Assembly (NCBI GenBank): GCA_027625915.1
Contig: JANTQA010000029.1
Span: 4,898,001-4,962,000, forward strand
Origin: Anaeramoeba flamelloides
Taxonomy: Eukaryota > Metamonada > Anaeramoebidae
Direction of reading: 5' to 3'
DNA length: 64,000 nt
Made by a program: the position numbers and the translations under genes. The notes under the pieces were generated by a model. It saw nothing but the letters and a program-made list of their open reading frames with translations. It did no database searches and was not told the DNA's origin. How positions within the stretch are numbered: position 1 is the stretch's first letter; each line of letters starts with the position of its first letter. This document shows positions 13,441 to 49,590 of the stretch, in pieces.

Positions 13441-13522
13441 AAATAGGGGGGTTTCAACTTTGATTTTAAAATTCATAATATATACAATTATCTTTCATAG
13501 ATATTCTTATGTTATGAATTAA

Positions 13523-21610: not shown

Positions 21611-24600
21611 TTAGTAAACAAAAAAAGAAATTTTTTTGACAGTTGATAAAAAATCAAAAAAAAAAACCAACTGTCCATTTTTATCAAGAACACTCATTAA
21701 AACAGACACGATCCTTTTATTTAAAATTTTGTCGTTTAATTATTTCTAAGAAATCGTGAATGCTTCGTTGAGAGGTAGTTGTTTAGTAGCTGCCATTTTT
21801 TTTTCTTTTTGATCCAATCTTTTTTGATCGTTCCAGTTTTTGTTTTTGTCTTTTCTTTTTATTTTCAAGTTACCCATACCGACTAGTTTCTGTCCTTCGA
21901 GTATTAGTAGGTAACCACTTGATTTTTCTCCTTAGTAATTCTTCTTCCCAATAAAAAGGAAATTCAACAAGGGAAAAAATAGAAAAAAAATAAAAAATTG
22001 TTTTTTTGTTATTATTATAATTACTATTTTTGACGAAATGTAAATTACACCCTCTATATTTCCTTTAACTTAAATTCCCTGAAAGGATTTTAAAATGTAA
22101 AATCCTAGATTTCACTGTTATTCAAGGAAGAGGTATACCCAAAATTTATTATTTTTATGATCGAAAAAGAAAAAATAATAAATAAACAAAAAAATAAGAA
22201 AAAAAAAAATTAAATTTAAAAAGGCTTATAAGAAGCAATTGGTAAAAAATCCAAAAAAAAAAAAAAAAAACACATGCTATATTTAATTAAGAACAACCAA
22301 AATCACAGCCATTATACTTTTGGTTAATTTAATAATTTGGTAATTGATCATGAATGTTCATTCGGGGCTAATTGTTTAAGTTGTTGTAATTTCTTTTTTT
22401 TTTGATCGTAATTGCTTTAACCCATAGTATTGTTTGTTTGAGCTTTTTATTTTTATTTTCAAGTTATTCATACTTTAGTGTTTCAGGTGTCTCAGTATTA
22501 GCAAGTAACAACTTGATATTTTTTTTCTTTTGTTACTCTTCTTCCCAATAAAAAGAAAATTTAGCTAGTGAAAAGATGGAAAAAAATAAAAATTTAATAA
22601 ATCATGAACAAACTTTTCTCATTAAATTTTTCAACTTTTTTATGGATATTTTTTAAAACTGTGATTGATTTTTTTTTATTGATTTTAAAGGGAGGAAATT
22701 AATTTCCTCTTACAGCCGTTAGGTTTTTTTTAATTTCAGAAATAAACCGAAAATTTTAATAAAATTTAGGTTTATTCCAAAAAGTAAAAAAAACCTAGAA
22801 CACTTAACAGATAAAACAGAAAACCTCAAGAAAAGCTAGGCACTCTACGGCACTTGCCGTTAGGTTTTTTTTAATTTTTGAAATTAACAGAAAATATAAT
22901 AAATTTTCGGTTTATTCCAAAAAGTAAAAAAAAAACCTAAGGCACTTGTCGTTAGGTTTTCCAGAATTTAAGAAGAATTGAGTTAAATCTTGGATTTTAT
23001 TCTATTCTTTTGAATTAAAAAAAAAAAAAAAAACTAGGAACTCTATGGTACTCTACAACACTCTACGACACTTTATGGCACTCCATGGCACTTGACGGCA
23101 CTTTCTAATTTCTAAATTTTTGTTTAGAAATTTAAATAAAGAATCATAATTTTATTTATAATTAACCAATGATAATATAAATAATGAATTTATATTTCAA
23201 ATAATATCAAAGATATTATTGTTTAGTTGCTTATTATTTTTGTTTATTTGAATTAATTCTTTAATCCAAATTTTTCTATTTTTTTCATAGGATGGTAGCA
23301 AAACAATTGTTTTTTTTACTTTCATTTTCCAATTAACAAAGGAAAAATTTTTATTTCAATTTTACCAAGATCGAGTTTCTTGACAGAAAGTAGAAAAAAT
23401 TCAAAAGATCATAAATCAAATTCAAAAAAAAATTTTCTCACATTAATTTGGTTTTACTCTTCCTTCTTGAACTTTTGAGATAAAATTAATTTTTTTTTAA
23501 ATGAGAATTTAACAATATGTTTCTAAAAAAAGTAAAACAAAAAAAAAAAAAAAGTATCTTAATCTGTAATAAAAACAATAAAAAAACTTTAATTAAATAA
23601 TAATACTTCATCTAAAAATTTAAAAAACAAAAATCATTATAATAATTAAAAAAATATTTCAATATTGAAAAATTTGATTTTTACAAATAGAAAAAAAATT
23701 TAATGATCAAAGTTATCCATTTTTTTACAATCAAGTAAAATAAAAGAAAAAAACCAAAATTTCATACTAATAAATTTGCTTTATTTTCTTTACAAAAAAT
23801 ATAAAATAAAAAATAAAAAACAAAAAACAAAAAAAAAACGTAAAAAAAAAAAATAAAAACCAAAAACACAAAACAAAATATAAAAAAAAAAAAAAAACAA
23901 ATAGGGACCAACCAATTTAAGTGATTTTGATAAAGTGTGTGATTTGTGTCGTAAAACTGGGTACATTGAAGAGAATAATAAAAAGCCAAATAAATATCCA
24001 GAGACATATTTCTCAAGAATGAAATTACCCGAAACCTTAATTGAGTTGGTATTAAGCCGGCTTCATTCTGAAGATATTTATCAACAATCCAAAACATACT
24101 TATTACAGGAACACCGAACCACCGCCTTATCTGGGCAAGCTTCATTACTCTATGTGATTTTATACTTTGCACCGGATAAATTAAACAGCGACAGTTCCTT
24201 TATGACTGAGATTGTGACAAAGCATTTTTCAGATAATTTTGTCATACCATTTTATTTGGGATACAATGTGGATTTAACTTATGAGTGGGACAAATATAAA
24301 TCAGCCTCCCAGGCATTAAATAAAGTACTCAAAAGAAAGCAATTAAAATTGATTTGGTCCGTTCATGAAAAGGCACTACCAAAATTACGAAAGGAATTAA
24401 GAAATAATCTAGTTGATGGGGTGTTAACAAATGAATTTGTACTCGATAACATTACAGATTTAATGAGATTAGTTCGCTCGGCTAATGTGACGATCAGGTG
24501 GATTATTTTGCATCAGACATCGCAGAATAAGAAAATCCAAAATTTAATTTCAGGATATGCGAAAAAAAAAATCTTAAATTTCATTCTCGACTTAGCACAA

Positions 24601-26820
24601 TTTGAATTTTTATTAACGGGTATTTTAGAAGAACTACTGGACAACAAGGAGAAAAAATGGTCAAAGCATAAAACTGAAGCTGAGGAGTGTCTAATTGAAT
24701 TATCTACCTTTTTTTCTGGTGAAAAGGAGCTCAATAGAATTCGTAAGGAGGAGCAATTGCAATCATGGTTTAAAGAAACTGCAGAGAAGGTCAAAAGTTT
24801 GGAGGATAACGATTTTAAGAGCACGGGCTTAAGAATTCAGGAATTGGTGCGAGCGCTTGAGGGTGTCAAAAGTTTCCATCAGATCCAATCATCGCTTCAA
24901 ATTAAGCAATTCATTGGGCATGTTGAAACCCAGTTACAACAGATGCTCAGGACCCTGAACGTTAAAGAGGAGTTTTTAAATAATTTAAGTATCGTCTCTG
25001 ATATGACGTATGCCTGGAAAATAATGAATGACTATATCCCGTTAATTCAACAGAAAATTAAAAAGCACCCATCGTCGGTAATCAAATTGCGATCCACATT
25101 TCTAAAAATGAATTCCATTGTCGAGCAGCCACTGTTAAGAATCAACCAAGCAGGCTCCAAGGATCAGGTCACGGTTTCAAGATATTACACCTCTGCGCTG
25201 CTTGGATTTGTGAGAAGGGTTTTGGAAATTGTGCCACAGACGATGTTCCGGACATTGCAAGAGATCATCAGCCTGCAAACAGACAAGATTAAGGAAATTC
25301 CCACAAAGATCGCCAAAACGTCGCTTAAGCAATGGGCGCAGCTTGACAACAGGTTTTTATTAGCAAAGCACACCAATTCGATCGCCCTATTTACCCAGGG
25401 GATTCTCGCGATGAAAAAAACACTTGTTGGTGTGGTCGAAATCAACCCAAAGTCCTTGTTAGAAGACGGAATCAGGAAGCAGCTTGTCAGAGAGATCGCC
25501 AAGATTCTGAATGAAAAGTTATTTTTCAAAACTTCCAAAATCGCAGAATTCGAAGCAAAGCTTGAAGACCTTGCAGACACCCTTGATGGGTTCAAAAGAT
25601 CCTTTGAATACATTTCGGACTACATGAACATCTATGGTTTGAAAATTTGGCAAGAGGAGTTTTCCAGAATCGTGAATTATAATGTGGAGCAGGAGTGTAA
25701 TTCCTTTTTGAAAAAAAAGGTCAGAGACCACCAATCGGACTACCAATCAAAGACAATCCCCATCCCGAAATTCCGAAAGCTCGATAACCAATCGATCACC
25801 TGCATGGGGAGGCTTGCAAGAATACTCTTAAAAATTACAGACGTCAAATCAACATCGTTTATTACCTTAATGTCAGCCTGGTTCGACCCAATTAAGGGTA
25901 ACGAAATAATTGGTACAAAGACGATCGGCTTGCTATCGAAATCAATCGGCGTTGCCGGGTTGAATGGGTTGGATAAATTAATTTCCTTTATGTTAGTCGA
26001 CAAATTACAAAATTTCGTTTCCCGTTATTGGTTAATCTTAAAAAACAATCCAGAGTTTAATAGGAACTTACAATTCCTCTCAAAAAAATTGAGGCCAATC
26101 TCAATGACGCCATTGAATCATCAGAAGTTGTACCAACAAACCATTTCCAAATCTTCTCAAATGCTCGATTTGTTTCATAAAATAATCATGGATTTGGGGC
26201 AGGGCCAATTGCTCAGAAAATTGATTTCTAATCAGCTGAACTTCCTTTCCAAAATTGGATCGGGCTTGCTATATTCAACTTTGAAAATCTTAAACAAGGG
26301 GTTGCTTTCAGATGTGCAATCCCATTATGAAAACCCACAGGACAAAACCTATGTCAGCGAGGAATTGATCTCAGAGTTAAATAAATACCTCGAATTAAGC
26401 GGATTCTCAAACCCTTATATGACCATATTCATCACCACAAAGCCAATCAAAATGTTGCCCCTCATCTTGTTTATGTTTACAATATCTCACCTCCAAAAGC
26501 TCGTCTACAATAAAAGACTATGCTCCTTGGTCAGAATTAAAAAAAATGAAGGAATAGATGGCACGCCATTCGTTGTCGGCATCCTGTCCTTATTAAAGCA
26601 ATTCCATTCATCACATCTTAAAAATTACCTCGGTTATTTGGGTCAATATTTAAGAGCTGAAATAAACAAGCTACAAAAGGATTCCAAAAGTTTAATATAC
26701 CCTGAACACATCACCAAATTGATCATGTTTTTAAAAGAATTCTCCAAAATCGGTAATATCAATAAAAGAACAATCGAAGTTTATTTGCCTCCATATTTAT
26801 TAAATTGCCTTGAAGATTAA
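14688..26820 (+). CDS. WASHC5: Strumpellin, WASH complex subunit 5
   Basis: Three exons give about 1146 aa, close to the roughly 1160 aa of animal strumpellin. Exon 1 is 14688-14918, exon 2 is 15055-15348 and exon 3 is 23905-26820. All junctions are GT-AG and phase 0 (donors GTTTGT and GTAAAT). The protein aligns with strumpellin throughout: LRIVS near the N-terminus, DLNEGIFI and GVMLLLMDKKI in exon 2, then CRKTGY, YPETYFSR, LPEHRTTAL, LYVILYF and LLEDGIRKQLV in exon 3. A long conserved block contains FKRSFEYI, MNIYGLKIWQEE, NYNVEQECN and IPIPKF. LLKQFHS lies near the end. Strumpellin is a scaffold of the WASH complex, which activates Arp2/3 on endosomes for cargo sorting. Exon 2 to exon 3 matches the family with no missing residues, so no exon is hidden in the giant intron. 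Exon 3 has much richer base composition than its surroundings. Confidence 0.93.
14919..15054 (+). other. Intron 1 of strumpellin with about 55 consecutive T
   Basis: This 136-base GT-AG intron (donor GTTTGT, acceptor TTAAAG) is largely an uninterrupted T run at about 14993-15047. The flanking exons join in frame and in register with strumpellin (ENNE before, then QLKDIDEE). Tract length in such a run is unreliable in assemblies. Confidence 0.8.
15950..16200. mobile_element. MITE, family with TTTTCATTCAGCTTTCC ends, copy 1
   Basis: The ends are inverted: ATTTTCATTCAATTTTTCC on the left and GGGAAAAGCTGATTGAAAAT on the right. An internal AGAATTGGGG-TTGAATGAT block and an outer tail TTTTATTTTGTGATTAACAG are present. 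The same organisation recurs at about 30855-31100, 38020-38270, 51348-51575 and 55060-55272. It is non-coding and 230-250 bp long, which fits a non-autonomous DNA element. Confidence 0.65.
16540..16700. repeat. Short inverted and tandem repeats
   Basis: GAAATGAAATTTCTTTATT is followed by its diverged inverse, GAAATTTCATTTCTTCA. After that, a 20-base unit of the form AAGCAATTTC-AAAAAAGAA is repeated about three times at 16660-16705. There is no coding potential. Confidence 0.45.
17582..17930. repeat. Tandem duplication of a 167-bp unit
   Basis: Two consecutive, highly similar copies (about 17582-17748 and 17749-17930) each run through TTAGAAAACTAAATAAAG, ATTCAAATACTTCT, GATACTCTTTGAATTAGAAG, TCACTTCAAAATTCTCTC and AACAGATTAGAT, ending CCTTAACAATAAA. 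A third, more diverged copy lies at about 46650-46815, inside the giant intron of the ARF gene. Confidence 0.75.
18640..20300. repeat. Subterminal repeats flanking the DDE transposon
   Basis: TTCATGAAAATATCTGAACTCGTGAAAAACT-like sequence occurs left of the transposase (about 18648-18680). A close copy occurs right of it (about 20250-20282), sharing TTCATGAAAAT and GAACTCGTGAAAAACT. An inverted TTTTCATGAATTT lies at about 18590. These probably mark the element's subterminal regions; exact ends and target duplication were not identified. Confidence 0.45.
18860..20108 (-). mobile_element. DDE transposon with IS5/Harbinger-type transposase (DDE_Tnp_4), decayed
   Basis: The antisense reading carries the three acidic residues of a DDE_Tnp_4 transposase: D in VVAVIDCTVHRI (about 19585), D in ALMVDKGYKG (about 19135) and E in VIIEQFYGRLKNR (about 19000). 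The intervening segment includes SGKHKFHCIKTQT and YHIRCGHPIRRN at the end. A GT-AG intron at 19347-19532 joins the first and second parts in frame. Upstream are a Gly/Arg patch (KGRGGRRGG) and a region matching LSWLRNYDKYEIL...FGISKAWCHD, the usual helical N-terminal part. A possible start is the ATG at 20108, with an acidic leader (MNIEIELENEEE). Several frame changes break the reading upstream of the catalytic core, so it is probably inactive. It cuts bases out and reinserts them as a DNA transposon; it lies antisense inside the strumpellin intron. Confidence 0.75.
21745..22590. repeat. Two diverged direct copies of a 250-bp segment
   Basis: Copy 1 (about 21745-21990) and copy 2 (about 22345-22590) share, in order, TGAATG, TTTTTTGATC, TTTATTTTCAAGTTA, GTATTAG-AAGTAAC-ACTTGAT and TTCTTCCCAATAAAAAG. 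Each is followed by an A-rich stretch. The spacing is about 600 bp. They are non-coding and probably reflect a segmental duplication or two copies of one element. Confidence 0.6.
22690..23180 (-). mobile_element. LINE 3' end split by a hairpin-module array
   Basis: Bases 22690-22712 (AAGGGAGGAAATTAATTTCC-like) and 23105-23180 (TAATTTCTAAATTTTTGTTTAG) match the two halves of the contiguous LINE 3' sequence at 40440-40520. Between them sit two copies of module A (about 22718-22797 and 22858-22942), a half copy of module B (22950-23025) and a run of GGCACT-type spacers (23036-23103). The array therefore appears to be inserted in, or expanded within, a LINE tail in antisense orientation. Confidence 0.6.
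22718..23103. repeat. Palindromic-module array
   Basis: Module A is a near-perfect hairpin of about 80 bases whose arms run from GTTAGGTTTTTTTTA through GAAATAAACMGAAAATTT to an AT-rich loop and back. Two copies are present. Spacers are degenerate repeats of GGCACTCTACG, GGCACTTGACG and CACTCTACGAC with a period of 10-11 bases. A half module B (GTTAGGTTTTCCAGAATTTA) follows. Related arrays are at 28255-28412, 36922-37375, 40862-41085, 47145-47868 and 49240-49590. Confidence 0.75.
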
Positions 26821-27824
26821 ATTAGATTTTTATTTTTTTTTCTTGTTTTCAATTGCTTTTAGAATAGGCGTGGTTAATTTTATAATACACAGAAAAAAAT
26901 AATTGTTTTTTTTTAAATTTTTTTATTTTTTTGATAATCATCCAACATTTTTCTATTTTCTTTTTCTTTTTCTTCTTCTTCTTTTTCTTTCATTCTTCTT
27001 TTTTTCTTCTTCGTTATTTTTTTTATTTTTTTTTTTTTTTATTAATTTTTCTTCTGAATTTAATAGTAAATTTAAAAAAAAAGAAAATAAAGAATAAATT
27101 AATTTTTGAATTTTTTTTTAGGCTATTTGTTTTTACCTTTTTGGAATAAAATCGGGAATTAAAAAAATCGAGTTACAGTGCAATTTATTTTGTTTTTCTA
27201 ACTATTCGGATTCGTAAGATGAAATATTTTAAGATTGATCATTTTTTGAAAAAGTAATACACTTACAAGAAAAATATTACAGCCTTTCCAACCCTACCAT
27301 GAAATCTATGATAAATAGAAAATCCATTCTCTGTCTCATACTTGGCTTTTTATGACAGGTTTTTATGGTTATATGATATCGTATTACAAACCTTGAAATT
27401 TTAGAATAGAATAAAAATTTACCAGAGAGAAAATATTAAAATTTGAATTTTTGACTATAAAACTTCTGAATGATAAATAATTTAGAAAAATTTTCATGTT
27501 TTTGGTGGATCCTAAATTTCGAAAGAACTGAAAATCAAAAGGCAAGATCATTTTAAAAGAAATCATAAAATTCTATCTTCGATCTTTGAAAGCTTTGTTT
27601 TGAATTTTTGAAAATTGTTTCCATAAACAAAAAGGTTTTTTCTCAGTCTTCTAAATAAGAAATTTTTTTAAACAACCTATGTCAAACCATAAAATATATA
27701 TAATAACGTATAACCTCAGATTTTTTTTTTGTGTATTTAACTGAGACAAAAAGCCAATTTCTATGTCTGTTAAATTTTACAGTAGGTTTGGACTATCTGT
27801 AACATTTTTTAAATAGAATTTTAA

Positions 27825-27990
27825 GAGGTAATCCCACTTAATAAATTTTAATTTTTTTAAATTTCTATGGAATACTTTAGCAATAAAACTATCATTTAAA
27901 TTACAAACCTAATTACAAATCAGATTTTGGTTATATTCATTTATCTCCCGATTTATTATATTAGATTCAATTAAAATTGTACAGAATTCA
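27825..27990 (-). mobile_element. Possible diverged LINE 3' tail
   Basis: The stretch resembles the antisense LINE 3' end at 40440-40640 in order: a GAGG-TAATCC hairpin remnant, TTAAATTTCTA, TTACAAATCAGATTTTGGTTAT, then TTTATTATATTAGAT. Similarity is patchy, so this is tentative. Confidence 0.35.
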
Positions 27991-28254
27991 GGTAATTGAC
28001 AATTGCTATACTTGTTGGGAATAAAATTTGTTTTTAAGTCTTATAAAGGTATATTTATCATTTTTTATAATAATCTAATTGTAATAGTTAATCAAAATCA
28101 AAATTAAGAAAAAATCTATTTTTATTGGGCGTAGGGTGTAATTTTGAAGATTTTATTAAAAAAAAAAATGAGAAGAAGAAAAATAATTAAAATAGTAATA
28201 TAAAAAATATTATTTTCATTTACATTGCCAAATTAAAATAAAAATGCTGTTAAA

Positions 28255-28412
28255 TTTTTTAGAATTTAAAAGAATTAAAAAAATCTACGATTTTATTCTC
28301 TTCTTTTGAATTCTTGAGATACGCTGTTAGGTTTTTTTTACTTTTTGAAATATAAAGAAAATTTGTAAAATTATCTTTTTATTTCAAAAATTATAAAAAA
28401 AAAAAAAAACTA
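28255..28412. repeat. Palindromic-module cluster
   Basis: A half module B (AGAATTTAAAAGAATT, then CTTCTTTTGAATTC) is followed by a module A hairpin at 28327-28412, starting GTTAGGTTTTTTTTACTTTT, with a weakly paired right arm. It is preceded at about 28145-28240 by sequence matching the short retroelement of 47003-47140 (GAGAAGAAGAAAAATAATTA). Confidence 0.55.
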
Positions 28413-28718
28413 TACACTATATAACAATTTTTATTGTTTTTTTCAGGGTTTGAAAGAATTTAGTATAACTAGTGATCTTACTCGTTTTTATTTTTTTTTT
28501 TTAATCTTTGTTTGGTTAATTAGGGTTTTTTTAATTTGGGAACTATTAAGAAAATTTCCCCTATTATCTTTTTGTTTCAACAATTTGGTTAAAATTCCTT
28601 CAATTTTGTGAGATAAAATGATTTTTTTTCGGGGTTAGTAACACCATAAAAAACAGCTGAAATTGAAATCTGCGATATTTTATTAAAAAATATATTGATG
28701 CTACTGAGTTCTAGATTC

Positions 28719-28720
<2 letters not shown>

Positions 28721-28758
<38 letters not shown>
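28721..28758. repeat. TA dinucleotide microsatellite
   Basis: About 18-19 uninterrupted AT/TA units. A similar tract lies at 62459-62486. Confidence 0.95.
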
Positions 28759-28761
<3 letters not shown>

Positions 28762-30854: not shown

Positions 30855-31100
30855 TACTATTTGTTGTATAATAAATGGAATAAAATTTTCATTCAACTTA
30901 TCCAAAAATTAGATTTTTAAAAGCATGTTAATTTTCTAATTTGTTAATTCTTATAATCATGTTGAATGGTAAACTTCTCTTTTAGAATTGCGTATTTTGA
31001 TAGACTTATTTTAATACTTTGGTTATTTATTTAATTCTTTGTTTGAAAAGCTGAATGAAATTTTTGATCTTTTTATTTTACAATTACCAGTATTTTTATT
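30855..31100. mobile_element. MITE, TTTTCATTCAGCTTTCC family, copy 2
   Basis: Starts ATACTATTTGTTG-ATAATAAAT, then ATTTTCATTCAACTTATCC. Ends TTGAAAAGCTGAATGAAAT, then TTTTATTTTACAATTACCAG. The internal TTAGAATTG block of the family is present. Confidence 0.65.
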
Positions 31101-34460: not shown

Positions 34461-34496
<36 letters not shown>

Positions 34497-34567
34497 TCAA
34501 AAAAAAAAAGAAACAAAAAAAAATCAAAAAAAATCAAAAAAAATCAAATCAGTTCAAAAAAACTTTC

Positions 34568-34598
<31 letters not shown>

Positions 34599-35003: not shown

Positions 35004-35050
35004 ATTTTTTTTTATTAAACCAAAACAATTAAAACAAATAAATTTTTATA

Positions 35051-35251: not shown

Positions 35252-35770
35252 ATGAGTTCATCCGAAACAAGCTCTGACAATTCCTCCCATTCAAGCAGCG
35301 AAGTTCAAGCAAAAAAAACAAGGAAAAGAAGAAGAACTAAAAAGAAAGTAGTCAAAAACCCAAGTTTCAAAGTCATGATCTATAAGGCACTTTGCACTAC
35401 AAGAAGCAAAAAAGGTTTATCCAGACCAGCAATTGTTAATTATCTTCAAGAAAATTGGGAACTTTCTAATGTATGGAGATACCATTTCAATAAAACACTT
35501 GCAGATTTGGTCGAAGACGAGTGTGTTTATCAAACCAAACAACATTTTGTTTTAGACGAAGATGAAAGAGAAGAATTTAAGGGGAAAGGAAAACGAAAAA
35601 GAAGAAACACAAAAACAAAAAAGAAGAAAAATACAAAGGGAAAAAAAAAAGGAAAAGGTAAAGGCAAAGGAAAAGGAAAGGGAAAAGGAAAAGGAAAAGG
35701 AAAAGGTAAAGGCAAAGGTAAAGGCAAAGGTAAAGGAAAGGGTAAAAAAAAAGGAAAAAAAAAAAACTAA
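35252..35770 (+). CDS. Linker histone H1-like protein
   Basis: Predicted protein of 172 aa from the ATG at 35252. Residues 1-35 are Ser-rich then basic (KKTRKRRRTKKK). Residues 36-101 match the H15 winged-helix domain of linker histones: NPSFKVMIYKAL (helix 1), GLSRPAIVNYLQENW (helix 2), FNKTLADLVEDECVYQTK (recognition helix and wing), then QHFVL. Residues 108-172 are a Lys/Gly tail of perfect KG repeats that would bind linker DNA. This domain plus basic tail is the classic H1 arrangement, so the protein probably sits on nucleosome linker DNA. An upstream extension of the frame begins inside the neighbouring MITE without an ATG, so 35252 is the better start. The Lys-Gly tail has little codon variety (AAA/AAG, GGA/GGT/GGC), which indicates repeat expansion. 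Confidence 0.82.
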   Translation: MSSSETSSDNSSHSSSEVQAKKTRKRRRTKKKVVKNPSFKVMIYKALCTTRSKKGLSRPAIVNYLQENWELSNVWRYHFNKTLADLVEDECVYQTKQHFVLDEDEREEFKGKGKRKRRNTKTKKKKNTKGKKKGKGKGKGKGKGKGKGKGKGKGKGKGKGKGKGKKKGKKKN

Positions 35771-36469
35771 ATGATAATCACAATGAGAAAGAAAATTAAA
35801 ACTCTTTCAACACTAATTTAGTTTTTTTAATGTTAAATTTAGTAAATTTTTAAACAAGCCTATTTTAATTAATCCAAAAATAAAAAATTAAAAAAATACT
35901 ATTATTTCCATTTTTTTATTTCAATTTTTGTCAATTTTTCTATCATATTTTTTTCCTAGCAATCTAGTCAGTATATTTTTTAATATCTATTTCCACAGTT
36001 TATGAAAAATTGAAACAAAAAATTGATTTTCTAAACTTGAAAACACCAATCCCCTTTTAGAAAAGAGAACAAACTTGCATGAAAAAAAAAAAATTCAAAA
36101 ATTCCAAGTTAGACAAAAGTCTTACTTCAATTATCGTTTCATCCTTGTTAATCGAGTTTATTCATAATATAATCCACATTCCAGTTCTTAACAATCATCT
36201 GGGTGTTGTATTTATTGTTGTTAATAGTATTACAAAATTTAAAAAGTCTCTAGTCTAGAAAAAAGGTCTATTTTGGGGGTAAAATTTTTTAAATGGATGT
36301 GACAATGAATTTTCCTTAGATTCAACTTTAGGCTAGTTTTTTCAATAGATAATAACCAACAGTATTGTGAACACTCTTTTCATCTAAAAAAACCCAAATA
36401 ACAAAAAAAAATATAATTGATGATAAATATCCATTGTAAAGTAGTGAAAAAAATAGCTTACAAGATTTT

Positions 36470-36890
36470 TAATTGTGAATATTAGGAAAATTGTTGTCTA
36501 ATTTCATTTATTTAAAATCAAATCCCCTTTTTAAGAATCAAACCTTTAAAATTATAGCACGTCCACTTATTAGATCGGTGATTAATAAAACTGAACTTGT
36601 TCAAAACACTATCTAATCAACCAAAAAAGAAGAATAAAAATTTACATTTTCAAACCCTAGTAAAACTCTGTAAAATTCAATTATTTTTCAATCAAAGTTG
36701 ATCTACCTTGGCTATCGAAATACCCACTTGATTATTATATATACACCCTACTTTAATGAACTTTAGGTAGGTTTGTTACCAATTTCATAAAAAATTAGGG
36801 TTTTTATAATGAGGATTTGATTGAAAATATTTGAAATTAAACAATATTTGAATAATATTCATAATTAAAACCATATCTAGGATTATTTCC
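36470..36890. repeat. Dispersed non-coding repeat, copy 2
   Basis: Same orientation as 6499-6930; the shared blocks are listed there. The copies are clearly diverged, and this one lacks the long A run present near 6650. Confidence 0.6.
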
Positions 36891-36921
36891 ATCTCTCAGT
36901 ATTTTTTTTCCCTACTCTACT

Positions 36922-37375
36922 AGTTTTTTTTTTTTTTTACTTTTTGAAATAAACTGAAAACTAAATAAATTTTCCTTTTATTTCAAAAATTCAAAAAAAA
37001 AACCCAACAAAAGTTTCCGTAGATTACCATAGAGTGTCTAGGCTTTCTATTTTAATTGTTAAGTGTTCTAGGTTTTTTTTGCTCTTTGAAATAAACAGAA
37101 ATTTTTTAATAAATTTTTGGTTTATTTCAAAAAGCAAAAAAAAAACCTAATGAAAATTTTATTGAATTTCCAAATAAATAGAAAACTCAAGAAAACCTAA
37201 TGGCGCTTTTTTTTAATTTAAGAAATTAAAAGAAAATTTTAAAAATTTTCTTTTTATTTCTCAAATAAACAGAAAACTCAAGAAAAGCTAAGGGTGGTTT
37301 TCCAGAATTCAGAAGAATTGAGTAAAATCTTTGATTTAACACCATTCTTTTAAACTGCGGAAAACCTAACGGAAA
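36922..37375. repeat. Palindromic-module array
   Basis: Three module A hairpins (about 36922-37010, 37070-37150 and 37203-37265) are followed by one good module B (37290-37375). The latter runs GGTTTTCCAGAATTCAGAAG, a central TTTGATTT loop, then CGGAAAACC. Spacers contain AGTGTCTAGG and AAGTGTTCTAGG words. Confidence 0.7.
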
Positions 37376-38019
37376 AACAAATAAAGTTATTTTTTACAAT
37401 TTAAAAGAACGAATAATTCTTTAATAGACCAAATAATTGATTACACAATTTGAAAGATATTCATCAAATTTAAAATACTTTTAAATTTTAATAAAATGCC
37501 CTCTTAGCTGTAAGGAAAAAAAAATTCAACTTTTTTACTATTAAGTTTGAAAAAAAATATGAATCGAAACTGATATATGAGATTTTCAACTTAAATCCAA
37601 AATATCTTTAAAAAAATTTTTTTTTCAAAGATCTTTTATTAACCAATAGTATTTAGTCTAATTGTGGTTATTAAAAAAGGGAAAAATTTACAAATATTAA
37701 TTTTTTTTTTTTGAAATATCTTTTTAATGATAGTGTTGTGCCAATATAAACTCATCTACTATGTTGATAGAACAAATGAATTTAGAAAAATAAAATAACC
37801 ATAAAAAGTTTTCAAGAAAACCCTAAACAAAAATTCAAAATTTTCCACATAATTAAAATAGTTAAAAGAATCAAGATAATATAAATCCTCAAATTCAATT
37901 TGGAAATAATTTTGCCTTATGAAAAATATGAAAATCATTTTTCCATCTTTTGTTTTTTGTTTTCATTTTTTTTTTGAATAAAGTAACTTATTGTGTTAAT
38001 TCAATTTTTTTTTTTCAAC

Positions 38020-38270
38020 AACTGATATTATTTTCAATTCTAAAATAAAATTATCAATATTTTCATTCAGCTTTCTAAAAACATTAAACCCAGGAATTAA
38101 AATAAATAATCAAAATTCCCAATTCTAAAAGGGAAAATAATATTTTAAACTCGTTATTATGGAATTAAAAATTTGAAAAGTTACAAGATTTAAAAATCTT
38201 ATTTTGGAAAGTTGAATGTAAATTTTGTTCCAGTTATTTTGCAACGAATAGTAATAACCCAAAAATTAAA
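38020..38270. mobile_element. MITE, TTTTCATTCAGCTTTCC family, copy 3
   Basis: The left end is ATTTTCATTCAGCTTTC and the right end is GGAAAGTTGAATGTAAAT, then TTATTTTGCAACGAATAGTA. The internal block is in reverse orientation relative to copies 1 and 4 (AATTCCCAATTCTAAAAGGG). Confidence 0.6.
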
Positions 38271-40061: not shown

Positions 40062-40424
40062 AGTTGGGATTTTGAAATGTTTGTTTGAAAATTGAAAAGA
40101 AAAAAAGAAAAAAATAATTTGATTATTAGTCTTTTTTCTGATGACGTTCCACTAAATCGGAAAAAAGATTGTCTTGTATACAGCATAAAGAGACTTGTTA
40201 TTTTAATTCTCAGTTGATTGATCTCCAACTTACTATAATTTTTAAAGGTTTTGAAAAAATTACCTTTTTTAAAAATTGAGAATTAAAATATATTATTTAT
40301 GATGAAAATATCTCTTATTATGTTCAATAGAAATTCGAGATTATAAAAAAATATCTTTTTACAATTCAGAGTATATTTAATAATTGACTATTTAACCCGA
40401 ATACAGATACTATTTCAGATATTA

Positions 40425-40740
40425 AAAAAGATCATTTTTTTTATTTAAGGGAGGAGTTATTAATCCCTCTTATTTACCCAAATTTCTAAATTTTTATTTG
40501 GAAATTATAATAAAGACTTTAAAATAAGTTTATTACCCACTAAGGCTAATAAGTAGATGAGTCCTTATTTGTAATCAGATTTTGATTATTATTATTTTTT
40601 AATATATTAGATATTTTAATTTTTTTTAATTTAGATATTCAGATTTTGTTGATTGCTTTCAAAGACTGTGCAATTCCAGAGAAAATTTTGTAAATCCACA
40701 ATGATATTTACAATTGTTTATTTTTTTACATAATTCACAG
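40425..40740 (-). mobile_element. LINE 3' fragment, second copy
   Basis: The antisense strand aligns closely with 13560-13850, including CAAAATCTGGATATCTGAAT-like sequence, an AATATATTAAAAAAT block and LVGNKLIL...KNLEIW at the C-terminus. It then has the same 3' end (CTCCTCCCTTAAATAA plus an A-rich tail). Unlike the first copy it has stops inside the coding part, so it is older or more decayed. It is 5'-truncated. Confidence 0.7.
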
Positions 40741-40861
40741 CATTTTGATTTGTTTTTATACATAACCTAAGAATCCCTGTTAAGATAAATATAAAAGTTC
40801 AGAGTTTTAAAATCCAAGTTGGCCACTCAATTCGAATATATTTTGTGGATATTTAAGCTAT

Positions 40862-41085
40862 GATTCTAATGAATAGTGAAAAATCGTTGATTTTACTCTA
40901 TTTATTTAAATTCCGGAAAACCAACTTTAAGTATTTTTTTAATTTGAGAAATGAAAAGAAAGGTTTAAATATTCTTATATTTCCTAAATTAAATAAAAAA
41001 AACGCCTTTAGGTTTTCCAGAATCCAAAATAATTACATATAATCAAATTTTTTACTCTATACTTTAAAATTCCTGAAAAATTAAC
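40862..41085. repeat. Palindromic-module cluster
   Basis: A right half of module B (TTTTACTCTATTT, then CCGGAAAACC), a degenerate module A (40928-41000) and a further module B (TTAGGTTTTCCAGAATCC at about 41010, decayed right arm) lie in succession. Confidence 0.55.
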
Positions 41086-42891
41086 TAGATTTACAATTTG
41101 GGATATTTTCTAAAATTTTTAATTTGTGAATTGTTTAGTTCAATTTTTACCTGTATTAATTTTATTGGTATCAATTAATATTTTCAAGTTATTTTTTTCT
41201 TCTAAAAGGGAGATAATTAATTAATTCATCAAAATTGGATTTTTAATTTTCGAATTAACTTAAATCTTCTTATATATAAAATAAAAGTAAAAGTTGATTT
41301 TCTCAGAATAAAAATATATAAAAGCATGGAGGGGTGTAGGTTAATTAAAATAATTAAAAAAATAGGGTATTGTGAAAATCAACTTATTTTGATTGACAGA
41401 ATTCAAATAACTCATCACAAAAATTTCATGAGTCTCTCCTTTTTCAGAAAATTCAATAAAAAAAAAGTTATTAATCTTTTTCATTTAAAAAAAATTAAAT
41501 CTAAAAAAAAAATACTTGTATCTTATTTTTTATATGTTTCTAAAGGGTTAAATTTCTTCAATTTATGAAAAAATGTTTCCGGAAGGTACACAATCGATTT
41601 AATTCAATTTATTCTAATTTTTAGTTATATTTAACCATTAATATTATACCAAGTAAAGATTTTGTAGCATTCTTTTTGAAAAAAATAACTCATTTGAGAA
41701 CAGAAAATGAAAAAAAAAAAAAATTTCCATCCTCAAAAATCGCCAAAGAGTAAATCGAAGCGCCCACTGCTCTTTTCAAAATTGTGTTTCAAAACTATTT
41801 CAATTCGAAATTGAATGTCGCTCTTAAGCAATCTTTTCAAAAAATGTACCAATTTTTCATTATTCATTTTTTGAAATGGATAGCACTTCGAACTTTGCTA
41901 AGTTTTTATTTGGTATAAGGTACTGATAAAAATTAAAAAGATTGTTTTACATTTTTCAGAAAATTATTCTTCATTACAAGGATTAGGAACTTAAGTCGTA
42001 ATTTGTGCAGTGATCAAAATAATGCGTGCACAACAACGTGAATCGGTGTTATGAAATATAATCCGTGCTTTTTTTTTTCTTGTTCAAATGCAACATCCAA
42101 TTTATTACCCAACAGTATACCTAAGTTCATATCAATTTTGAAAGTAAAGATCTGGTTATTTTCAGTAAAATTTAAATTATTCATGCAAATAGTTGAAAAT
42201 TTTTAAAATTTTTCAAAATTTATTCTTGAAATTTTTTGTTTTTTTTATGATTAAAATTTTTTGATAATTTACTCGATTTTTTATATAAAATTTTCCAATT
42301 TGATCTTTATTTTTAGAATTTCTTTTTAAATAATAGAACTTTAAGAAACCAGTACCATATTTAATTAGGTTGATTGTTGGTTTCTTTGATCGTTGATGTA
42401 TGAGTCTTCTTGAAAAAAAAACACACTTTTTATTTTGAAACATGCAGATTAAATTTTTTACATGGTTTATTTTGATAACAATAGGTAACAAAAATTCAAT
42501 GGCATCAATTGAACCTTTGTGTTTGAAATATGGAAGTAAAGAAAAGAATACAAAATATTGATAAGATTTTAAGAGTGTGTTCTTCCATTGAAAAAAAGTT
42601 ATTAAACGTCCTAAAAAATAATTTAAAAGAAATAAATAGTATTGCAAATAATTTTAAACTGTTATAGTTAGAAATTATTTTCATTAATTAATTATCGTTA
42701 AATATCTGATTTTATTAGAAATTTCAGAAAGGAAATTTAAATTTAAGTACACCAAGAAGGTAACTCTAGAATTGAAAAAACAATATAGTCACATTTTCTG
42801 ATATACTGAATTTGTTAATTTATTTTGTAAAGTTTTCAATCTTGATTATTTTTCATTTTTTTATTTTCCATTTATTTAATAAAAAAACAAA

Positions 42892-45800
42892 ATGGGTAAT
42901 TGCTGTTCAAATTCAAAGGACGTTCGTGTTTTAATGGTATGGTTGTCTTTTTCTCATCAACCCAATTTCTTTTTTCTTAAAAGTTTCCCAAAACAGAATT
43001 TTTTCAATGTTGTGTCGAAACAAAAGCGACTGTTTGAGCATTATTTAGTTTCAGAAATATCATTCACAACTTTTTTTATTCGAAATTTGTTATTGCTCTA
43101 CTTTTCTTCAATACCAAAAAAAAAACAAAATAGGTTGGTCTTGATGCTGCAGGAAAAACATCCATTCTTCAAAAACTTTCAAAGGGAAATTCTGGATCAA
43201 CAAAACCCACTGTTGGTAAGTCTGATTCGCACACTTATAACCAAATTAGGATTCTTTTCCTTCTCATTAAATATAATTTCTTGTATTTCTCTTTAATCAT
43301 GCACATTTTCCTTTTGCAAAATAAATTTTTAAAAAAAAAAACAAATTTTAAAAACAAAAAAAAAAGGATTTAATGTTGAAACAGTTCTTTACAAAAAAGT
43401 GAAATTTACAATTTGGGGTATCAAATTCCTTCCTTTTTATTCTTTAGTGATTTGAAACATTTTTCGTTTCCAATTTCTTTCTTGACTAAATTTATCTTTT
43501 TTAACTGGATAAACCCTTTTATTCTGAAACCACTTTTGTTTTTCTTTTAAAAATGTAACTTTTTCTATTGGAATAAAAAAGACGTTGGTGGTCAAGACAA
43601 AATTAGAACACTGTGTTTGATCTTTCTTTTTAAATCTTTTTCTTTTTTTGTTTAATTTCTCTGTTGGGTGTCTTTACTTTTTTCAATTTATTTTGTATTT
43701 GTTTTTCCACCAAATCAAAAACCCAAAAAAAATAAAATCGCTAATTTAATTTTCCTACTCCTTTCTGAAAAAAAATTGAATCTCACAGGGAGACATTATT
43801 ATGAAAACGTTCAAGCAATACTTTTTGTTGTTGACTCTAGTGATCAAGAACGCCTTCAAGAAGCAAAAAATGAGCTTCAAAAAATGCTTTTAGAAGAAGA
43901 ATTGAAAAACTCTGCGCTAGTTGTATTTGCAAATAAACAAGATCTTCCAAACACAATAAACGCAGATAATTTGATTTCAAAATTTGATTTAGAAAAGCAA
44001 ACAAACAGAAAATGGGCTTGTTTACCAACTTGTGCAATCAGTGTAAGTATTTTATTTGTTCTTGCTCTTGTTTTTTTTTTACAAATCTTTAACCTACTGT
44101 TGCAAAAATAACCCGTGCGCACATGGCAAAACTATGATGCAAACTAAAGGCCGTGTGTTTCTTATTTCAAGAAAGCTTACACATAAAAAGATCGAGAAAC
44201 CACTAATAAACAAAATGTAAAGACGATTTTGGTTTTTTCAATCCTCTAGCATTAAAAAGAAATACAAAGGAAAGATCAAAAGTGAAATTCTTCTCAAAAA
44301 ATAGAGTAAATTATCAAAAAATTATATTATAAAAAAAAAACAAAAAATTACAATTGACAAAATTGTTTTAAATTTTCAACAAATTCAATTCATATTTTAA
44401 AATTTTCACAAATCAACAAGCAGTTTATTTTCATAATTGATTTGAACTTTAGGCTATACGACCGAGTACTGAACTAAACTCTTTTTCAAACAAAAGGTCA
44501 CACCTCTCAAATCATCAATACTATTGAATTTGATTGTTAATAAGATAATTACTATTTGGTGATTTTCATTTTAATTATTCATTTTTTCATTTTTTGATTT
44601 TTTATGGTTTGCTAAAGCAATGGTTAATCATGAAAACAAAACTTTTACAATTTGTGGCCAATTCTTGTTATTCAAAAAAAAAAAAAAAAACATTTTTTTT
44701 TTTTTTTCATTGTAAACTCTTTTTCAAATAAAAGTACACAGAAATTTTCAAGAATTATTTATAATTGAATCAAATTAATTGTAGCATCATTCTAAAATAT
44801 AAGAAACTCTTTAAAACATAAAAAAACACTCGACTGGATATTTAAAACTCATTAAAACAAAACAATAAAAATTATAATTAAATAATTTTAAAAATTGATA
44901 TGCCCTTTTATTTGAAATGAGAAATCTCATTTTGTAAACTGTAAAGAAAAAAATTATAAAATCAATAAAAACCTTTGAACACGGTGAATTGGGAAAAAGT
45001 TCTTTACAGGTTATTGATAACTCTTAACAAGTCAAAATTTTGTTCTTTAAAGTCTCATTTTAAAGATAAAGCCGCAATTCATCCGGGTATTTTGTTGGGA
45101 TTGTTTTTTACTTTTTTTTCATTTTTTCTTTGTTCCATGCATCAATCCAAAAATGGTCTTTCTTGATTCCTATATCTAACTCATTCGAAATTAAAATTAA
45201 ACTGTTTCCATTTTCAAACTGGTAGATTATTTCCAAATTGTTTTCTTCTTGTCTTGTTTTTTCATTTTCCAACTGTTCAATATCCAAAAATAAATTAACA
45301 AAAAATGAAAAAATGAAATATTTAAAATAAAAATCGCCAATAAGTAATTATCTTATTAACAATCAAATTTAATTGTATTGGTGATTTGAGAGGTGTGTCC
45401 TTTTGTTTGAAAAAGAGTTTAGTTTTGATCCTACTAAAAATTAGATCTGATTGTTTGGTGGAAAGGCAATGGAAATTGAGTTTCTTTCAAAGTGGATAAT
45501 TACTTTGTTGTAAATTTGATTTGTTATTTTTTTTATATTTTTTTATTTTACAAACAACCATCTTTAACTGCCTTCTGATTCTTCAAGAAACTTTAATAGT
45601 TTTTCCGATTTTGTGTGTTTTTTAAAAAGATTTTTTGTTTTTAGAATGATGTTTTACATTCCCGAAACAGAAATATTCCCAGCTTTGGTAAATCCTACTG
45701 ATGTTTATTGTGTAAACTATTGGTGATTAGAGATTTACTTGAAAGAAAAAAAAATTTTTTTTTCATTATTATTATAGACTTTAATTGATTTAATTCGTTT

Positions 45801-48405
45801 TTTGAATTTATTTTTTAACTTTTTTTGTTTCAAGTTTGCTTCTTGAAAATTTTAAACAAAAGGAATTAAAAAAATTGATAAGATGATTTACGGATGTTCC
45901 TTTTCAAATAAAAAAGTTTAATTGAAAGTTTCAATTTAATTTTTTTAGCAAAAAGAGTAATTGACAAAATTCATTAATAAAAAAAAACCGTTTAAATTCT
46001 ATTATATATTTAATTAAATCGTTCTTTTCTCATAATTCTTATTTTTTTCAAAAAAGGGTATTAAATTCGTTCTCAAATAAATTTTTTATTGTAAATTTTG
46101 AAAAAAAAAAAAATCATAAAAAAGGTAAAAAATCCATTAAAAAAAACCTTTCAATTTATGATAAAAATTTATTCATTGATTTTGAATTTGTTTTGCTGTT
46201 TACAAAATCAAAAAAACTTCACTTTTCAATAACTAAAAAAAAATGCAAAACACTTTTAAATCAAAAAAGGTATTTTAATTGAAAAAAAAGTAATTAAAAA
46301 AAAAAAACAAACAGCAAATTGAATTTCAAAATATTCTTTTCAACAATTATTTAATTTTCAACATTCCCCCTTTACTATTCCACAAGTCAACCATTTATAT
46401 TTTTTTGAAACAATTTGGTATATTCCAATCTCATTTTTATCTTTTTTCAAAACAGTTTTTTGTTTCTCTAAGAGACCTTTTCTTCAATTTATTTTTCCAA
46501 ATTATTATCAATTTGGAATAAAGTGAAGACAATTGGTAAACTATGAATAATTACCCAAAGCTTAAACCAAAAAAATATCGCGATTTATCTTGAATGGATA
46601 TTTTGCAACTGGTTTTTAAAATCTCGTATTATTACTTTATAAACTCAAATGTAAATTTTTTTTTTTAGAAACTAAATTTAGTTTCAAATACTTATAATGG
46701 TTGTGTCGATTCCAGACGCTCTTTGAATTAGAAGTTATTTATTTAGTCACTTTAAAATTCGCCCATTGCCAGATTAAATGATTCTTTCATTTTTTATCTT
46801 AAGTGTAACAATAAAATTGAAAATTTTTTACATAGTATTTTTTTATATTGTTTTATAAGTATTTATTTTTTCTATTGTGGATATATTGTGAATGATAAAC
46901 AAGTGTTAACAGTTTGATCAGTTAATAATATAATTTTAGTATTTCCCTTAAGGTATTTGTTTGATCAATATATTTGAAAATAATTCCTTAAATAACAAAA
47001 ACGTTTTATTTATTTGTTTGGAGAAAGAAGTAATTTTAGAAAATTTTATCAAACTAAAAAAAAGAGAGAGAAGAAAAATAATTAAAATATTATAAAAAAT
47101 AATAATATCGTTTTCATGTTCAAATTAAAAAAAAATAGTCGTTATCTTTTCCAGAGTTGAAAAGAATTGAGAAAAATCTTTGATTTTACTCCATTCTTTT
47201 GAATTCTGGAAGCCCCATGCCACTCTACGACACTGTTCATTAGGTTTTCCAGAATTTGAAAGAATTAAGTAAAATCCTTGATTTTAAGTAAAAGCTTTGA
47301 ATTCTAGAAAAGCACCATTAGGTTTTTTTTAATTTGAGAAATTAACAAAAACCGCCGTTAGGTTTTTTGAGGTTTTCTATTTTATTCGTGAAGTGTTCTA
47401 GGTTTTTTTTACTTTAGAAATAAACCGAAAATTTATTAAAATTTTCTGTTTATTTCTAAAGTAAAAAAAAACCTAACGAAAATCTATTGATTTTCCAAAT
47501 AAATAGAAAACCACAAAAAAACCTAACGAAAATCAATAGATTTTGTAAATAAAACAGAAAACCTGAAGAAAACCTAGGCCTTTGGCGGCACTTTTGGGTT
47601 CCTAATTTTTTTTTTCATTCTGGAAAAGCGCCGTTAGGTTTTTTTTACTTTTTGTAATAAAAAGAAAATTTATAAAAATTTTCTTTTCATTTCAAAAATT
47701 AAAAAAAACCTAGGCACTCTATGGCACTTTCGTTAGGTTTTCCAGAATTTAAAAGAATAGGGTAAAATCTATATGAATGTACTCTATTCTTTCGGATTGT
47801 GGAAAACCTAGGCACTCTACGGCGCATGACGTCACTCTACGTAACTCCACGGTACTTGACGGTAAGTAACCAAAATTCACAGGGGGGCAAAACCCCGATA
47901 AAAAGATAATCAATACAGATAAAAATTCCACAATCTGTGATTAAATAACAAAAACATTTCATTTTCCTTTAATGTTTTTTAAAATAAAAACAAAGGATCT
48001 TATAAATTAAAAATCAGATCAATGCACAATATATTTAAACTAAACTTTATTGATTTTTTTATATCCAATGTATTTTCTATTGGTGTTTTTACTTGAACTG
48101 ATCCTTTTTTTTTAGCACTAATTTGATTTGGGTTTTTATTATTTTTATGTATCTATATATTTGTTCATTTTTTTTTTTTTTCATTTCAGCAGCTACACAA
48201 TAATTTGAAAAATGATAAAAAATGATTTAGAAAAACTATTAATTTCAGATCATACTGATTTACTTAATTTTTTGTTTTTTTTTCTTTTTAATAACAACTG
48301 TTTATAAATATTAATTCTTTAATTTATTTTACCTTATTAATTAAACAGGGCGATGGTTTATATGAAGGGTTGACATGGATTAAAGACGCACTATTTTTAA
48401 AATAA
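42892..48405 (+). CDS. ARF-family small GTPase
   Basis: Six exons (42892-42936, 43134-43215, 43367-43417, 43582-43614, 43789-44042, 48349-48405) give 173 aa, with in-phase GT-AG junctions. The product has the P-loop GLDAAGKT (17-24), switch I PTVGFNVET (40-48), switch II DVGGQDKIR (60-68, catalytic Gln64), NKQD (119-122) and CAISGDGLYEGLTW (152-165). It is therefore an ARF or close ARL GTPase that recruits coats and effectors to membranes. Gly2 (MGNCCS) is a myristoylation site, and Cys4/Cys5 could be palmitoylated. The segment between Gly2 and the P-loop is about seven residues shorter than in ARF1, so the amphipathic helix is nearly absent. The final intron of 4.3 kb is far longer than the others (about 150-200 bases). 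Confidence 0.92.
44472..45424. mobile_element. Fold-back element with 130-bp inverted ends
   Basis: Arms at 44472-44606 and 45300-45424 are inverted copies at high identity. From the outside in they read AACTAAACTCTTTTTCAAAC, then CACACCTCTCAAATCA, then TTTGATTGTTAATAAGATAA. A third partial copy of the outer word lies inside at about 44705. The 690-bp core has no recognisable gene; a 63-codon frame at 44975 is not convincing. Confidence 0.7.
46650..46815. repeat. Third copy of the 167-bp repeat
   Basis: Aligns with the tandem units at 17582-17930 through TTTTTTAGAAACTAAAT, TTCAAATACTT, ACGCTCTTTGAATTAGAAG, TAGTCACTTTAAAATTC and AGTGTAACAATAAA. It is more diverged than those two are from each other. 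Confidence 0.65.
47003..47940 (-). mobile_element. Short retroelement with 15-bp target duplication, carrying a hairpin array
   Basis: TTAAATAACAAAAAC is found immediately left (46988-47002) and immediately right (47941-47955), a duplication length typical of LINE/SINE insertion. Read antisense, the element starts TCACAGATTGTGGAATTTTT and ends in an ATAAATAAAA-type tail, so it was inserted antisense to the ARF gene. Its two ends (47003-47140 and 47869-47940) match the ends of a compact copy at 55273-55490, which lacks the 725-bp internal array. It has no open frame, so it would depend on a LINE. Confidence 0.7.
47145..47868. repeat. Largest palindromic-module array
   Basis: This holds at least two module A hairpins, one of them near-perfect at about 47397-47477 (arms AGGTTTTTTTTACTTTAGAA). 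Three module B hairpins are present, the clearest at 47735-47810, with arms GGTTTTCCAGAATTTAAAAG and a loop near 47770. AACCTAACGAAAATC direct repeats and a terminal run of CACTCTACG-type spacers (47810-47865) complete it. Some arms still pair over 35 bases with few mismatches. Confidence 0.78.
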
Positions 48406-49023
48406 TTCTCAATTTTTTACTTATTATTGTTTACTTTCTATTTAATAATTTTTGATATAAATTAATAATAATAATGATAAATTGATTAAAGAAATCTTTT
48501 TCTTGAATTTTTTCAAAATAAATATTTGTCTCTTATTATATATTTTCAAAATCTATGATATTTTTTTCAAACAATTTAATAAAAAAATATTTTTCTTAAT
48601 GGAACTCTCTATTTTGATTCATATACTTGAAGGGTCTGGAAATACTGGAATGGCATTTTCCTTTGAGGCATCTTAAATAATGCAATGCTGTTAATAAACT
48701 ATTTTATTCATTAAATTAAATAATATTATACTATTAAAGAAGCTTTATATCTGAAATATTAATGATTTGATTTTTTTTTTTTTTTTTTTTTTTATCACTC
48801 TAATTAATCCCCCCCCTCTCTTTTAATTCTTCTTTATATAGGTATATACTTCATTCAATTTTAATTTATAGATTTAAAGTGAATATAATGTTTTATTTAA
48901 AAAAAAATGTAGTTGTGAAAAACATGATATTATTTCCATGGACTAATGACTTGAAAACTTTGATTTTTAATATAATACAAAAATCGTTCGTTCTATTTTT
49001 TAAAAAGTTTAAAAATACTGTTG

Positions 49024-49590
49024 ATTTATTTGGAGAAGGGGGTAATTAAAGAAAATTTTATCAAATAAAAAAAAAGGAGAAGAAGAAAAATAATTAAAAT
49101 ATTTATCAAAATAATAATATCATTTGTATAACCAAATTAAAAGCTAACCACTGGATAAATTAATAAATAAGGGTGTAATTTTTCATTTTAAAGTTATTTA
49201 AGTAAATAAAAACATAGAATTTTTTATATAGATTCATAACACATTTTTTTCAAGTTTTAAGAAATAAACCGAAAATTTTAGAAATTTTCTTTTTATTTCA
49301 AAAATTAAAAAAAACATAGGCACTCATCATTATTTTTTTGCATAATGTTTAATAATTGTGCTAAAATTGAAGATTTTTGTTTTAACACTGAAAACTCTAA
49401 GAAAACCACCGTTGGGTTTTTTTTTTACTTTTAGAAAATAAAAAGAAAATTATTAAAATTTTATATTTGTTTCCAAAAATAATTAAATTTGCTGTTAGAT
49501 TTTCCAGAATCTGTACGAATTGGGTAAAATACTTGATTTTAAGTGAAAGGTTAGGAATTCTGGAAAACTACTATTTGGTTTTCTTGGCGT
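49024..49590. repeat. Retroelement end plus palindromic-module cluster
   Basis: Bases 49024-49140 match the left end of the retroelement at 47003 (TTTATTTGGAGAA, GAAAATTTTATCAAAT, GGAGAAGAAGAAAAATAATT). Module A copies follow at about 49250-49320 and 49405-49490, and a module B at about 49492-49570 (GTTAGATTTTCCAGAATC, then GAATTCTGGAAAAC). The right end of the retroelement was not clearly found. Confidence 0.6.

Follow-up and report, generated by a model that had tools for sequence, protein, structure and literature searches.

Mosaic hairpin arrays in an A/T-rich eukaryotic genome resemble shuffled transposon cargo

Introduction

Clusters of short palindromes, mixed in different numbers and orders, recur along a 64,000-nucleotide stretch of genomic DNA (the window: positions 4,898,001–4,962,000 of contig C29, in a genome of 254,072,379 bases and 76 contigs), and raise the question of what these clusters are, how they came to occupy their places, and how their modules became mixed. 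The DNA belongs to a eukaryote, because the window contains genes for strumpellin, a linker-histone, and Utp11, and an Arf-like exon. Its GC content varies from 0.18 to 0.38 per 2 kb, and the genome is A/T-rich. ARAGORN, in its bacterial setting, identified no tRNA genes in the window. Approximately 0.08% of the genome was read, and about 90 kb of this material was picked through an exact match to the arm of one module, B, from the single contig C1.

The window also contains other repeats and fragments. A DDE_Tnp_4 transposase fragment at 18863–19357 (E 1.4e-21) has no link to the hosts of the arrays. A run of AAAAGG hexamers at 35635–35758 corresponds to a (KG)n tail at the 3' end of the open reading frame (ORF) with the linker-histone domain, and a tandem repeat with a 165-bp unit (2.1 copies, 93% matches) is located at 17585–17928. 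A dispersed repeat of approximately 220 bp occurs at 15961–16194, 30855–31085, 38036–38265, 51349–51575, and 55061–55280; its copies are 69–76% identical to each other and, as far as seen, are not related to the arrays.

Results

Structure and abundance of the modules

Modules are present at all seven clusters listed in an earlier note on this DNA (13.3, 22.7, 28.3, 36.9, 40.9, 47.1, and 49.2 kb), with exact arms and spacer words at 22.7, 28.3, and 47 kb and weaker ones at the remaining positions. The note recognized two palindromes, A and B. Both were recovered, but the count was too low, since there is a third type, C, with the arms GTTAGGTTTTCTTGAGTTTTCTGTTTATTTG, as well as nested forms in which A is frequently enclosed by C. 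Module A, an A/T-rich palindrome, occurs in subtypes that have AATTTTTG, AATTTGAG, or ACTTTAG arms, and the arms of module B are GTTAGGTTTTCCAGAATT. The three modules have the ends GTTAGGTTTT and AAAACCTA in common, but not their cores. A unit consists of a near-palindrome of 75–85 bp (A, B, or C), which starts with GTTAGG and ends with CCTAGG or a shortened form of it, and a tail of degenerate 10–11-bp words, the last of which is CACTTTC. The GTTAGGT start resembles the integron core GTTRRRY; the likeness was judged to be a coincidence. The longest of 54 A-centered palindromes is a compound one in L012 (1116–1456), with 98% identity between its arms over 158 aligned positions; a second alignment matches them at 112 of 113 aligned positions, with 19 gap columns. 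Such an identity suggests recent copying from arm to arm, or recent formation.

When one mismatch is allowed, the shared outer word CGTTAGGTTTT occurs 18 times in the window, compared to a mean of 1.65 in shuffled sequences, and none of 100 shuffles reached 18. The degenerate 10–11-bp spacers reported between modules were found, and the spacer words themselves run as short tandems. Among 31 arrays examined, 24 hold spacer words, and in 22 of these the words point in one direction (73 words versus 2, with the LINE arrays oriented by hand). The order of modules differs among the 30 arrays tabulated, which bears out the described mixing of module order and number; the single fixed order of an old transposon, against which the earlier note had set its reading, was not found among them.

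In the whole genome, the B arm has 1,811 exact matches (896+915 on the two strands), whereas the backward control has none. With up to two mismatches, a 17-mer from the B arm matches 14,831 times (7449+7382; backward control 226, 119+107), the spacer pair GGCACTCTACGGCACTTGACG 2,360 times (1172+1188; control 0), and the end of module C 2,062 times (1042+1020; control 0). An apparent strand bias of the B arm (25 of the 100 matches listed were on the minus strand) was rejected, since the exact reverse pattern gives approximately equal strands and more places on contig C1. An 18-base B arm in one viral contig was taken as a chance match, because the surrounding 220 bases contain one arm and no hairpin. 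The spacer pattern has no match in viral contigs.

Four 10-kb stretches (L031–L034) were taken irrespective of arrays. Together with the window they contain ten arrays with a recognized B or C module, weak scattered A-like matches being ignored: seven in the window, two in L033, one in L032, and none in L031 or L034. Scaling ten arrays per 104 kb to the genome extrapolates to about 24,000 arrays, a figure with a wide margin, as the window is not a random sample. A fifth stretch (L035, contig C60) contains no array; its GC content is 0.36, compared to 0.23–0.25 in L031–L034, and it possibly comes from a different organism or compartment.

The clusters are not free-standing. They are bounded by flank similarity on both sides and occupy fixed places within larger repeats. 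By our own reading, two of the ten arrays reside in an element with terminal inverted repeats (TIRs), four in a LINE, and four in a third host.

Arrays in the LINE host

The LINE is assigned to its class by a reverse-transcriptase-like ORF, A-rich 3' tails, and copies with differing 5' starts, indicative of 5' truncation. The RVT_1 match in L025 (E 4e-5, 23.7 bits) lies under the curated cut-off of 29.6. The C-terminal coding piece of the LINE matches L025 2482–2021, where it overlaps the end of the RVT_1-like ORF and continues past one stop. A CxxC...HxxxxC motif was recognized in this piece by eye, and a Pfam search of it gave nothing convincing, including no match to zf-RVT. Protein searches with two LINE pieces returned 6,563 and 5,626 first-look candidates, of which 150 each were scored.

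The arrays occupy three insertion points close to the 3' end of the LINE ORF, as defined by the array-free reference copies L036–L038. L037 and L038 are 98–99% identical to L036, and all three copies lack the array at all three sites. L039, which is 82% identical to L036, covers just sites 2 and 3 and has no array at either. Thus, four of the four young LINE copies read, which were chosen for open frames, are array-free at the sites covered. Downstream of the array-free copy in L037, a degenerate C module is located at 797–1134, beside a second, inverted LINE fragment.

At site 1, L001 and L004 break at L036 299|301 and contain inserts of 245 and 107 bp, respectively; L024, in which approximately 56 positions are missing, and two window copies have arrays near this site. 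The content differs: L004 carries A there, L001 C-C-A, and L024 B-A-B, and in L024 the spacers run, by eye, in the opposite direction relative to the ORF. The opposite orientations in L024 and L004 imply that site 1 was filled at least twice, or that the array was inverted. The GTTAGG...CCTAG outline of the modules, with its GT...AG ends, recalls introns; this was rejected as a general reading, since the site-1 inserts of L004 and L001 have no GT at the break. Site 2, near L036 464, is filled in L004 and, with one B module, in L021. At site 3 the break is at L036 667|668 in L024 and at 665|669 in L008, which is also where the window copy at 23.1 kb ends.

The first LINE copy of the window (approximately 12916–13850, plus strand) contains, within its coding remains near site 1, a plus-strand B-A-B array at 13178–13430. 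It is followed by the C-terminal coding piece at 13431–13816, array-free at sites 2 and 3, and then, on the same strand, by the end of the ORF, the terminal CCTCCCTTAAA, and an A-rich tail. The second copy is on the minus strand and consists of the 3' end with the palindrome GAGGAAATTAATTTCCTC and then an A-rich tail (22670–22717), and a C-terminal coding piece homologous to L036 477–665 (23107–23295). Its site 3 is occupied by a plus-strand array, antisense to the LINE, at 22718–23105, which reads A-(C 3' half)-spacers-A-B-spacer run. In the third copy (approximately 40435–41278, minus strand), a B-A-B array is located near site 1 at 40863–41085, also on the minus strand.

Arrays in the TIR host

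The TIR host (family 2) is approximately 0.7 kb long without its array, with about 360 bp to the left and 355 bp to the right, and has CAC...GTG ends. Its terminal inverted repeats of approximately 17 bp, CACGATCATGAAAAAAT on the left and ATTTTTTCATNCTAGTG on the right, were compared by eye. The CACT... ends make the CACTA-like superfamily a candidate assignment. The flanking 2 bp match in three of the nine copies in which both ends were located (L023, L028, and L040), and are unmatched in L003, L011, L015, L018, L033, and the window copy. The arrays themselves have no clear target duplication; CACTTTC was considered as one and rejected, because the identical word closes arrays at different targets. 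The window copy is located at 36073–37734 on the minus strand, with its left end at 37734, and carries an array of A, C, and B modules at 36931–37370 on the same strand.

A search for the TIR host gave 2,759 first-look candidates, of which 40 were scored. In a separate search with the joined flanks as a query, the 40 candidates scored comprise 23 array-free copies, 15 split copies, and one left flank alone, so that 23 of the 39 placed copies are array-free. The query was derived from the filled copy L040, and filled copies were thus favored near the top. Array-free copies are 79–91% identical to this query, and the left flanks of filled copies 93–100%. The gaps in the split copies measure 94, 155, 172, 174, 181, 182, 264, 265, 265, 275, 282, 283, 286, 296, and 574 bp, and thus increase in steps of roughly one module. 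In L042, the one array-free copy that was read, the empty junction is GATTTTCC|AATATTTATC. L043 has a single A unit exactly at this junction, L044 an A and a short A, and L045 an A and a C. A motif search located the junction in L003, L018, L023, L028, L033, L040, and L043–L045, and failed to find it, or put it in the wrong place, in L011, L014, L015, L016, L020, L029, and the window copy.

Recent amplification, proposed in the earlier note, applies to some array-bearing copies: the flanks of L028 and L040 are 92–96% identical (left 96.4%, right 91.8%). Their arrays differ, with A-B-(C tail)-B in one and A-B-C(A)-A-B in the other. The first A modules are 91.0% identical and the first B modules 86.7%, so that divergence clearly beyond that of the right flank is seen in B but not in the retained first A.

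Arrays in the third host

The third host is a short repeat; all of its window features are on the plus strand. Its left flank at 46983–47130 has relatives at 28102–28243, 48995–49142, and 55273–55397, and in L032; the flanks of the 47-kb array are found again in L032 and beside the arrays at 28 and 49 kb. The largest array of the window, at 47141–47831, reads B-B-A fragment-nested C/A-C-A-B-spacers and is followed by the right flank at 47887–47944, which matches 55426–55484. The array at 28249–28585 reads B-A-(degenerate B, A), and that at 49245–49691 is a degenerate A-A-B-C. The copy at 55260–55490 has no array.

A shared pool of modules

Distances between B modules were compared for the 39 of 49 copies, from 20 arrays, for which the host is known. 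The mean distance is 0.218 within a host and 0.219 between hosts, and 902 of 2,000 label permutations gave a difference as large; within one array it is 0.232 (26 pairs). B modules differ by approximately 13% from their consensus, and the left flanks of 12 TIR-host copies differ from each other by 0.164 on average. As sharing an array or a host does not bring B modules closer together than they are between hosts, the arrays seem to have been put together from a pool that spans the genome, although old saturation, or palindromes that mutate faster, could partly account for the absence of clustering. Different hosts have blocks in common that exceed the length of one module, as in L019 (LINE) and L011 (TIR host), which are 87.6% identical over 249 bp; L004 and L018 share a block with 85.3% identity over 197 bp. 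Among arrays with hits, the best match is in another host for eight of 15 LINE arrays and three of 16 TIR-host arrays, which indicates some host signal at the level of blocks. No recent, sharply bounded shared tract, as would mark direct exchange, was found in the arrays compared.

Pairing of the arms and folding

The claim that the arms are still well paired stands for A, in which the mismatch is 0.149 per pair in 54 copies, and less so for B, in which it is 0.225 in 49 copies. Permutation of the A arms raises the mismatch to 0.182, and none of 5,000 permutations was as low. This covariation comes from columns, 21/61, 30/52, and 17/65 among them, that for the most part distinguish the subtypes; it does not demonstrate selection on RNA, since several founder palindromes yield the same pattern. 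Swapping the B arms between copies leaves the mismatch at 0.225 (fraction at or below, 0.48), so the maintained pairing that had been suggested is not supported for B. A slight excess of pairing is present in the 31 columns where the commonest pair is Watson–Crick (0.179 versus 0.189; 32 of 2,000 permutations at or below).

The predicted folding into serial hairpins was confirmed over 298 nt, with z = −6.7 relative to shuffles; a fold this strong must be expected of any array of palindromes. No Rfam family matches the window at the gathering score. Six Piwi-domain matches over the cut-off were detected in open frames of 541–768 codons on contigs C13, C70 (two), C9, C37, and C24, so processing into small RNA may be possible.

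Discussion

The arrays look more like shuffled transposon cargo than like new regulatory machinery. The clusters are probably hypervariable cargo arrays at fixed places in three hosts, spread by these hosts and remodeled by copying between arrays. Insertion places are fixed, each host has array-free copies, module numbers change stepwise, and polarity is nearly uniform in arrays with spacers. Closely related host copies carry different arrays, and B modules group neither by array nor by host. Each host would have acquired its arrays in one or a few events, and these would have multiplied through host transposition. Remodeling may then have proceeded by copying among many dispersed arrays with common outer words, either through ectopic gene conversion or through template switching in gap repair or reverse transcription, and stable hairpins would promote template jumps. 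Sequence-specific function would be unnecessary for explaining the arrays.

How the units move is the least firmly shown step, and a mobile cassette may instead have inserted serially. According to that explanation, a unit of approximately 94 bp, made up of a hairpin and its spacer tail, inserts alone, preferably beside existing units, and arrays grow serially with a fixed polarity. It agrees with the single-module fillings in L043 of the TIR host and in L021 and L004 at LINE site 2, with the stepwise array lengths, and with modules that have common termini and different cores. The opposite orientations of L004 and L024 at LINE site 1, as compared by eye, also need separate events or an inversion, and B shows no signal of local duplication. 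Nevertheless, no clear, constant target duplication is seen, and the edges of the unit vary: the site-1 insert of L004, read in the direction of the array, starts with TCCTTAGG and ends within a spacer. Furthermore, the recurrent junction in the TIR host and its polarity are explicable by one founder insertion, and we regard the mobile cassette as unlikely. In a broader form of the idea, which is speculative and rather doubtful, all three modules belong to a single class of self-spreading nuclear hairpin cassettes. These would be approximately 94 bp long and have common ends, insert side by side with fixed polarity, hop among the three hosts, and preserve or restore their palindromes through copying from arm to arm. 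Copying between arms enters it because of the palindrome in L012 (2 × 158 positions, 98%). If true, it would describe a eukaryotic cassette-array system lacking a gene of its own.

Ordinary tandem expansion of an old inserted palindrome, by slippage or unequal exchange, would account for length steps of about one unit and for spacer words in short tandem runs. However, the module types are interleaved, and B modules of the same array are 0.232 apart, compared to 0.218–0.219 across arrays, which makes this origin improbable. Local tandem duplication would thus explain the module mixtures poorly, and a genome-wide pool from which modules are recruited or copied would fit better. It is highly improbable that the arrays are maintained RNA hairpins, whether as hairpin-RNA loci that feed Dicer/Argonaute or as RNA structures that the hosts require. 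The z-score of −6.7, the six Piwi-domain frames, the covarying A arms, and the 98% identical arms of the L012 palindrome are consistent with such a role; against it, the B arms covary slightly at most, and the window has no gathering-score match in Rfam. The hosts do not require the arrays, since the arrays are absent from four of four young LINE copies at the covered sites and from 23 of 39 placed TIR copies.

Cargo arrays of this kind depart from several known classes of repeats. MITEs are short elements with terminal inverted repeats, as is host family 2, but the center of family 2 is a variable array. Satellite DNA consists of one homogenized tandem unit, whereas here the modules are mixed and B modules are not similar within arrays. 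The lack of an obvious precedent asserted in the earlier note did not hold up, as two papers already describe transposons that have variable repeat arrays at their center (PMC7492417, PMC4079207). Among the titles listed by literature searches of open-licence papers, none points to mosaic hairpin arrays common to several transposons, which does not prove their absence elsewhere.

Among the closest known systems are HINEs, or non-autonomous Helentrons, such as oyster Cg_HINE, the center of which derives from one or exceptionally two clusters of satellite-like repeats of 140–180 bp (PMC7492417). These elements are also dispersed, have a repeat array in the middle with a conserved flank on either side, and combine related flanks with unrelated centers (PMC7492417). 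Here, in contrast, the arrays interleave three palindromes, and all three hosts, of which one is a TIR element and one a LINE, contain the same modules. The Helentron likeness rests on the central array and flanks, and the TIRs of family 2 are a contrary feature. Foldback elements, for example Tetris of Drosophila virilis, are likewise modular, rearranged, and non-autonomous, with variable internal repeats (PMC4079207). Their repeats lie within long terminal inverted repeats (PMC4079207), whereas the arrays described here are internal and the TIRs measure approximately 17 bp. The TIR host thus has no long TIRs built of repeats. The selfish organelle palindromes of Volvox carteri are also short hairpin-forming repeats that spread in non-coding DNA; they are tens of nucleotides long, reside in organelles, and are judged by the authors of that study to be inert in the nucleus (PMC2670323). 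In contrast, the present arrays are located on a chromosome-sized contig with nuclear genes, and consist of 75–85-bp palindromes ordered with spacers into arrays within transposons.

In the systems compared, the variable central repeats are homogeneous satellite-like units bound to a single host family. In the present genome, three hairpin modules seem to form a pool that is reshuffled over unrelated classes of transposons. Empty, one-unit, two-unit, and larger states coexist in a single genome, which opens the gain and remodeling of internal repeats by transposons to direct testing and provides a natural setting in which to study hairpin-driven template switching.
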